The notes under the pieces are model-generated. The model saw nothing but the letters and a program-made list of their open reading frames with translations, was not told the DNA's origin and made no database searches. From Gemmatimonadota bacterium (GTDB taxonomy: Bacteria; Gemmatimonadota; Gemmatimonadetes; Gemmatimonadales; Gemmatimonadaceae): a DNA stretch of 37,727 nt. Location: the NCBI GenBank assembly GCA_016874035.1, contig VGVM01000024.1:1-37727 (forward strand), given 5' to 3'. The translations under genes were made by a program, and so were the position numbers. This document shows, in pieces, positions 21,621 to 27,232 of this stretch (position 1 is its first letter; each line of letters opens with the position of its first letter).

Positions 21621-22072
21621 TGTCCGGGGCTCGCGTGCGCCACGAGAGTTCGGCCGGCGGCGTGGTGTTCCGCCGCGATGGCGACGCGACCTATGTGTTG
21701 CTGATCCGCGATTCGTACCGGAACTGGGGATTCCCGAAGGGGCACATCGAGCCCGGCGAAACCCCGGGCGCCGCCGCGGTCCGTGAAGTCGCGGAGGAAA
21801 CCGGCCTCACCTCGCTTGAACTGCTGGGCGAAGTGTCCACGATCGCCTGGACCTTCACGTTTCGTGGCGCGCGCGTGCGCAAGACCTGCCACTTCTTCGC
21901 GTTTGCGTCGGCGTCCGCCCGGGCGCGCCCGCAGCGCCGCGAGGGCATCACGTCGTGTCGCTGGGTGCGCGCGGACGAGGGCGTGCGCATGCTGTCGTAC
22001 CGCAATGCCCGCGGGGTGCTGAAGGAGGCGCTTGCGCTCGTCGGGCTGGCGCCGCCGGTGGCGGGCGCGTGA
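21620..22072 (+). CDS. Nudix hydrolase
   Basis: A 150-residue Nudix-fold pyrophosphatase. The Nudix box is complete at residues 41-63: Gly41, Glu47, then REVAEETGL (55-63), matching Gx5Ex7REUxEExGU. The preceding SAGGVVFRR…[16 protein letters not shown] resembles bacterial diadenosine-polyphosphate or MutT-like members. The substrate cannot be assigned from sequence. It is translationally coupled on both sides: one base of overlap with the ATPase and four with the regulator. Confidence 0.93.
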
Positions 22073-22884
22073 CCAACGCGCTGACCGCGGCCGGCGACCT
22101 CGCACCGCCGCTGACCGTCGCGGCATTCGTGACCCGCGATCGGGCGCGCGACATCGTGCACCGCGCGTTCCCGCGGCGGAAGGCGCACGTGATCAACTGT
22201 CGCACGGCCGCCGAAGTTCGCGAGGTCTTCAGCCGTGAGCTCGTGGATGCCGCAGTGGTGGACCTGGGAACGCCGACCGAAGAGACGTGGCGCGCCGCGG
22301 GGCTCGCCCGACACTTCCCCTGCGCCGGGTTCATCGGCCTGACGCCGATGCGCGCCGCCGACGGGCCATCCGTGGCGCGCTGCGCCGAGCTCGAGTTCGC
22401 CGATCTCTGCGCGGACGGGATTGATGACAGCGGGCTCGGACCCCAGATCCACGCGGCCGCGTTCACCACCCGCTTCGTCCGCGCGCTCGAACCCGCTGCG
22501 GAATCGCTCGGCCTCAACTCGGTCGCCCAGCGCCGCGCCTGGCGGGCGGTGGTGTCGTATGGTGGTCGGCCCGTGCGGACGGTGCGGCTTGCGGCCACGC
22601 TCCGCGTGACGCGCGAGCACCTGAGCCGGACGTTCGCCACGGCCGGTGCGCCGAACCTGAAACGGGTGATTGACCTGGTGCGGCTGATCGCGGCGAGTGA
22701 GCTGGCCAAGTGCTCCGGTTACGACCTCGCGGACGTGGCACGAGTGCTCCAGTTCGCATCGCTCTCGCATTTGACGACGACCGCGCAGCGGGTGTGCGGC
22801 GCGCGAGCCGCATCGCTCGCGCGGCTCCGGGCAGGGGACATTCTCGAGCGGTTCCGGGAAGGGCGGGGCCGGAGCCGGAAATAG
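22069..22884 (+). CDS. AraC-type HTH regulator with receiver-like N-terminal domain
   Basis: A 271-residue probable transcription factor. Residues about 15-130 alternate short strands and helices ([36 protein letters not shown]) like a response-regulator receiver domain. The aspartate in VVDLG is at a phosphoacceptor-like position, but the acidic pair at the first strand is missing, so it may be a pseudo-receiver. Residues about 170-250 form a double helix-turn-helix of AraC type: [20 protein letters not shown], then [27 protein letters not shown]. The GTG at 22069 overlaps the Nudix stop (GTGA). Its targets are unknown; the operon suggests envelope or stress control. Confidence 0.78.
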
Positions 22885-22914
22885 CGCCGGCCGCCGGGCC
22901 CGGGGCCCGGCGCT
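22883..22914 (+). terminator. GC hairpin after the regulator gene
   Basis: AGCGCCGG (22883-22890) pairs with CCGGCGCT (22907-22914), with further G/C pairing inside. It starts at the stop codon of the regulator gene. There is no U-tract, so Rho may be needed. Confidence 0.5.
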
Positions 22915-22962: not shown

Positions 22963-22998
22963 TTGCATCGCCCCCCGCTTGTGATATTTTTCACAAGC
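22963..22998 (+). promoter_or_regulatory. atpA promoter with Rex-like operator
   Basis: GCTTGTGA-TATTTT-TCACAAGC (22977-22998) is a perfect 8-bp inverted repeat around an AT-rich centre. Its central 18 bases match the Rex operator TTGTGAA-N4-TTCACAA with one mismatch; the TGTGA-N6-TCACA core also fits CRP/FNR-family sites. The centre forms an extended -10 (TG-A-TATTTT, -10 at 22985-22990), with TTGCAT (22963-22968) as a poor -35 at 16 bases. A protein bound here would block the promoter, 56 bases before the atpA ATG. Confidence 0.7.
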
Positions 22999-23053: not shown

Positions 23054-24622
<1,569 letters not shown>

Positions 24623-24631
24623 GGGCGACGC

Positions 24632-26972
<2,341 letters not shown>

Positions 26973-26989
26973 TCCGACGACGGTGACGA

Positions 26990-27232
26990 ATGCTTAAGGT
27001 CAGCGTGATTTCCCCGGAGGCAACGCTCTTCGAGGGCGAGGCGCAGTCCGTCGTCGCCCCGGCGTTCGACGGCGAAGTGGGTATCCTCAGCGGTCACGCG
27101 GCCATGGTGACCGTGCTGGGGAATGGCTCGCTTCGGCTCGCGGATGGCACGGCGTTCCGGATCGAGGGCGGCTTCATGCAGGTCGCGGACAATGTCGTCC
27201 GCGTGGTGACGGAAAAGGCGACGAAGGTCTAG
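26990..27232 (+). CDS. atpC: F1Fo ATP synthase subunit epsilon, short form
   Basis: An 80-residue protein corresponding to the N-terminal beta-sandwich of epsilon: MLKVSVISPEATLFEGEAQSV, GEVGILSGHAAMVTVLGNG, FRIEGGFMQVADNVVRVVTE. The usual bacterial protein has 130-140 residues; here the C-terminal helical hairpin that inhibits ATP hydrolysis is absent. Short epsilon proteins are known from Bacteroidetes and Chlorobi, so this is not a broken gene. It starts 17 bases after atpD with only a weak ribosome binding site, and is followed by the terminator 27239-27268. Confidence 0.95.
   Translation: MLKVSVISPEATLFEGEAQSVVAPAFDGEVGILSGHAAMVTVLGNGSLRLADGTAFRIEGGFMQVADNVVRVVTEKATKV

Follow-up and report, generated by a model that had tools for sequence, protein, structure and literature searches.

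The window analysed here, a stretch of 37,727 nucleotides, carries the genes for the F1 part of ATP synthase, and directly before atpA lies a palindrome which the preliminary description read as an operator of the redox regulator Rex laid over the promoter. Rex is an established NADH-sensing repressor. The locus raises the question of whether this palindrome is a Rex operator, a site for some other regulator of similar specificity, or no operator at all.

The palindrome matches the motif TTGTGAN6TCACAA without mismatch and the Rex consensus TTGTGAAnnnnTTCACAA with one; compared with Rex operator (ROP) palindromes like TTGTGAANNNNTTCACAA, the single difference is A to T at position 7. The sequence is thus as first described, and the perfect 8-bp inverted repeat claimed for it holds as well, with arms GCTTGTGA (22977-22984) and TCACAAGC (22991-22998) pairing at all eight positions around a 6-nt spacer, TATTTT, and CTTGTGATATTTTTCACAAG forming its centre (22978-22997). 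Perfect 8-bp inverted repeats with loops of 3-10 nt are common in the window (22 were found), so the significance is carried by the motif and not by the palindrome. The exact 12-base motif occurs once in the window, against about 0.00025 occurrences expected from base composition, and twice in the 3.08 Mb genome, before atpA and before rex, against 0.02 expected. With up to two mismatches allowed, the genome contains 29 sites versus eight for the reversed motif; most of the 29 are not claimed as targets, and many fall inside genes. The core of the site ends 57 bp before the atpA ATG, the start of an atpAGDC operon (Table 1); the ATP synthase is split, with the F0 genes located elsewhere in the genome (G000:C72). 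The short AtpC protein aligned with the N-terminal part of the epsilon models only. Further upstream, a 16-bp G+C-rich inverted repeat lacking a T run (22883-22914) lies directly 3′ of an AraC-like gene (22069-22884) and possibly marks the end of transcription of that gene.

Table 1. Features of the atpA promoter region and the F1 operon in the window.
Feature	Position	Strand	Evidence
-35-like hexamer TTGCAT	22963..22968	+	TTGCA-like element at fixed operator distance in relatives
Putative extended -10: TG (22982-22983) and hexamer TATTTT (22985-22990)	22982..22990	+	Conservation of TG and hexamer
Predicted Rex operator TTGTGA-TATTTT-TCACAA (TTGTGATATTTTTCACAA)	22979..22996	+	Exact match to TTGTGAN6TCACAA, kept in relatives
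Perfect 8-bp inverted repeat enclosing the operator	22977..22998		Arms complementary 8/8
atpA, F1 alpha, opening the predicted regulated operon	23054..24622	+	TIGR00962, 776 bits
atpG, F1 gamma	24632..25492	+	TIGR01146, 300 bits
atpD, F1 beta	25548..26972	+	TIGR01039, 815 bits
atpC, F1 epsilon, short (80 aa)	26990..27232	+	TIGR01216, 65.3 bits, slightly below the cut-off of 67.25

The preliminary description proposed looking for a rex gene, and a single one is present in the genome (C12:7178-7807). Its product is a full-length Rex regulator with both an N-terminal DNA-binding domain (PF06971, 63.2 bits) and a Rossmann NAD-binding domain (PF02629, 69.9 bits); it exceeded the cut-offs of the NCBIfam Rex models NF003995, NF003992 and NF003993, with a Rex match of 246 bits. 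Nearly its full length matches solved Rex structures, including 2dt5 (E 1.2e-46), 5zz5 and 1xcb, and it has the VRKDLS helix and the GxGxxG motif in common with 2dt5. An exact operator is located 19 bp upstream of the rex gene itself, and the autoregulatory site characteristic of a Rex regulon recurs in relatives: 40 of the 45 rex upstream regions fetched carry the site at no more than one mismatch, one does not, and the gene start could not be located in four.

Conservation before atpA, proposed as a further check on the Rex reading, is nearly complete, with the site kept in 66 of the 67 Gemmatimonadales genomes read that have rex. All 40 such genomes of family f1 carry it at no more than one mismatch (38 exactly), as do all 25 of those read in family f2 (20 exactly, two genomes being unread), while in family f3 it was found in one of two, at two mismatches. 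G038 carries rex but lacks the atpA site, and none was found in the 45 atpA upstream regions read from families f4 to f9. In a named set of 80 atpA loci, 74 of them read and possibly overlapping the first genome set, 21 of the 23 loci with AtpA at least 81% identical bear the site at no more than one mismatch.

The site also tends to co-occur with the regulator. Among the readable Gemmatimonadales without a detected rex, G081 and G050 lack the atpA site and G055 has it, G031 being left out of this count with only 55 bases of its upstream stretch read; the comparison of 66/67 rex-bearing with 1/3 rex-less genomes gives a Fisher p of 0.004, kinship ignored. Across the phylum, PF06971 is present in 109 of 121 genomes, and the exact motif is found in 103 of the 109 rex-bearing genomes versus two of the 12 rex-less ones (p 4e-9, kinship again ignored), with 358 occurrences in total versus two for the reversed motif. 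In G055, intact sites stand before atpA, nuoA and the F0 genes, and its rex is likely missing through an assembly gap; a DNA search for it using the rex region of G079 as query gave no match and is uninformative. Separately, genomes of genus g39 in the same class (L297-L307, L330-L339) contain 7-22 exact TTGTGAN6TCACAA sites each versus none reversed, and in one of these, G017 (L330-L339), 10 of the 21 exact sites read fall inside predicted ORFs.

Alignment of 67 atpA sites on the operator reveals two conserved islands separated by near-random bases, the operator itself and a TTGCA-like element 17 to 13 positions before it that is clear in f1 and weaker in f2. In the window this element is TTGCAT, whose first base, 22963, is the start of the feature as first described, and the spacer from -35 to -10 is 16 bp, compared with 17 bp in most relatives. 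The hexamer at the operator centre is mostly TATTTT, TAATTT, TTATTT or TAAATT and is preceded by TG in all 67 sites, giving the extended -10 pattern TGATAWWTT. At operator position 7, 61 of the 67 atpA sites have T, and the 40 operators of rex promoters have A (read by eye), likely because this T begins the -10 hexamer. The distance from operator to atpA ranges from 12 to 118 bases (approximate start), with the promoter-operator block staying fixed. A TTG at a suitable distance upstream was not found in eight of the 67 sites, and a consensus promoter scan at a strict threshold found no promoter at the window site; the case for a promoter, including the extended -10 originally placed under the operator, comes from conservation among relatives.

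This layout bears on the rival reading that the upstream gene ends in an RNA hairpin or terminator formed by the inverted repeat, or that the repeat is AT-rich core promoter sequence with no operator function. Such a reading would accommodate the frequency of 8-bp repeats in the window and a repeat spacer that is itself a conserved -10-like element, however a terminator search at the atpA site found none, and the operator arms are conserved as much as the -10, although a -10 needs no TCACAA arm. The rex-less G081 and G050 keep the -10-like hexamer but have lost the arms (read by eye), and the same arms, around different spacers, precede rex, nuoA and further operons, leaving a hairpin or plain promoter with a negligible probability.

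The reading as a Rex operator also predicts that the site recurs before other respiratory operons, a check that found it before nuoA, a cytochrome operon and a cupredoxin gene and, in relatives, before the F0 genes, as in a Rex regulon. The window genome has sites at one to two mismatches before nuoA (C13:16600), a plastocyanin-like protein (cupredoxin) at C2:26487, and an operon on C91 of multihaem cytochrome c/molybdopterin-type proteins, whose nearest NCBIfam models, QrcA and QrcB, scored below cut-off and which may encode an alternative complex III. A Rex-like site at one to two mismatches is also present between clpP and clpX (C8:45894); this unusual target was seen at L019:7895 in the window genome and at L283, L320 and L326 in three genus mates. 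Two-mismatch sites with G+C-richer spacers at SURF1 (C31:14972) and at a CRP-type gene (C99:4970) are not claimed as targets. In five genus mates, with target genes called by a purpose-written script, sites at no more than one mismatch lie before rex, atpA and the cytochrome operon in all five, between clpP and clpX in three, and near a cupredoxin gene and upstream of the F0 gene atpZ/I in two each.

The F0 operon carries a site at up to two mismatches, often CTTGCGAAAWWTTTCACAAG, in 23 of 26 rex-bearing genomes (30 genomes examined), in a scan that took in whole atpB loci of 2.2-3.7 kb, beyond their upstream parts. The window genome is among the three without one and retains a damaged half-site (L400:10467-10484), so F1 and F0 may be unequally controlled in this organism. 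The nuoA core GTGAAN4TTCAC is present in 19 of the 21 rex-bearing genomes read, six of the 30 nuoA starts surveyed being unlocated. Among rex-less genomes, G031 has a damaged nuoA site and an F0 site with two mismatches, G081 has neither site, and G050 has lost its F0 site.

A different regulator could in principle use the same sequence. Sites for CRP/FNR-type regulators have the layout TGTGAN6TCACA, which the half-sites and spacing before atpA also suit, and there is a single strong CRP-type HTH gene in the window genome, encoding a cNMP-binding HTH_Crp_2 protein (C99:5011-5688) with a two-mismatch site 24 bp upstream. When the HTH_Crp_2 profile was tested across ten genomes, however, the presence of such genes did not track the sites: they are kept in the rex-less G031, G081 and G050, where sites are lost or damaged, and G017 has 22 exact sites and a rex but no HTH_Crp_2 match over the cut-off. 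The persistence of CRP-type genes in rex-less genomes argues that the operator follows Rex. An exact site precedes rex itself, and the atpA site covers the -10, the position of a repressor, unlike the classical activator position of CRP. With a site distribution that largely follows rex and not HTH_Crp_2 genes, the CRP/FNR-type alternative raised in the preliminary description is disfavoured, and binding of such a regulator in place of Rex is improbable.

The site before atpA is most probably, at about 0.93, a binding site for the Rex repressor encoded in the same genome, forming part of the atpAGDC core promoter. A Rex operator merged with the F1 core promoter, belonging to a Rex regulon of respiratory genes in Gemmatimonadales, is well supported as a prediction from comparative sequence analysis. 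At low NADH/NAD+, a Rex dimer would occupy the palindrome, covering the -10 and the start region, where transcription is expected to begin near 22996-22998, and block RNA polymerase at atpA; with rising NADH, Rex would take up NADH and leave the DNA, allowing more F1-ATPase transcription together with that of the respiratory operons bearing the same site. Rex binding, repression and release by NADH at atpA are what we infer by analogy, the NADH-driven release of transcription following from Rex action elsewhere.

Rex control of atp genes is already known from Streptomyces avermitilis, where atpIBEFHAGDC, nuo, cyd and rex-hem are bound and repressed by Rex, whose hold on DNA is reduced by NADH (PMC5355995). 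The two systems are alike in having an operator of the type TTGTGATACGGTTCACGA at an ATP-synthase promoter and the nuo and rex operons in the regulon. They differ in that the S. avermitilis ATP synthase forms one operon with its atp operator between -35 and -10, covering the -35, whereas here the F1 and F0 operons are separate and the operator contains the -10. According to the same paper, Rex operators in Staphylococcus aureus and Bacillus subtilis follow a TTGTGAAWWWWTTCACAA-type consensus, from which the atpA site differs by T for A at position 7, the first base of the -10; the anaerobic targets quoted for these species are fermentation and nitrate-respiration genes, in contrast to the respiratory-chain and ATP-synthase operons found here. 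Oxygen limitation lowers atp expression in S. avermitilis whether or not rex is present (PMC5355995), so control of atp there does not lie with Rex alone, and the importance of Rex for atp in physiological terms may be slight. The site before atpA would be the same kind of switch in a little-studied phylum, given that it is kept in relatives and that the same motif precedes complex I, other respiratory genes and rex.

A search of an open-access literature library found no paper linking Gemmatimonadota with Rex, and the prediction would extend control of ATP synthase by Rex, known from actinobacteria, to this phylum. The evidence leans toward a broader picture for Gemmatimonadales in which a single NADH sensor would gate the chain of oxidative phosphorylation, made up of complex I, a quinol-oxidising complex resembling alternative complex III, a cupredoxin carrier and the two parts of the split ATP synthase, along with the protease partner ClpX, the F1 operator being fused to the -10 in a way that makes promoter and operator a single evolving unit. 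The rex-less genomes provide a natural experiment in which the operator arms erode and the -10-like hexamer stays, and cultured Gemmatimonadota would allow a direct test of the predicted regulon.
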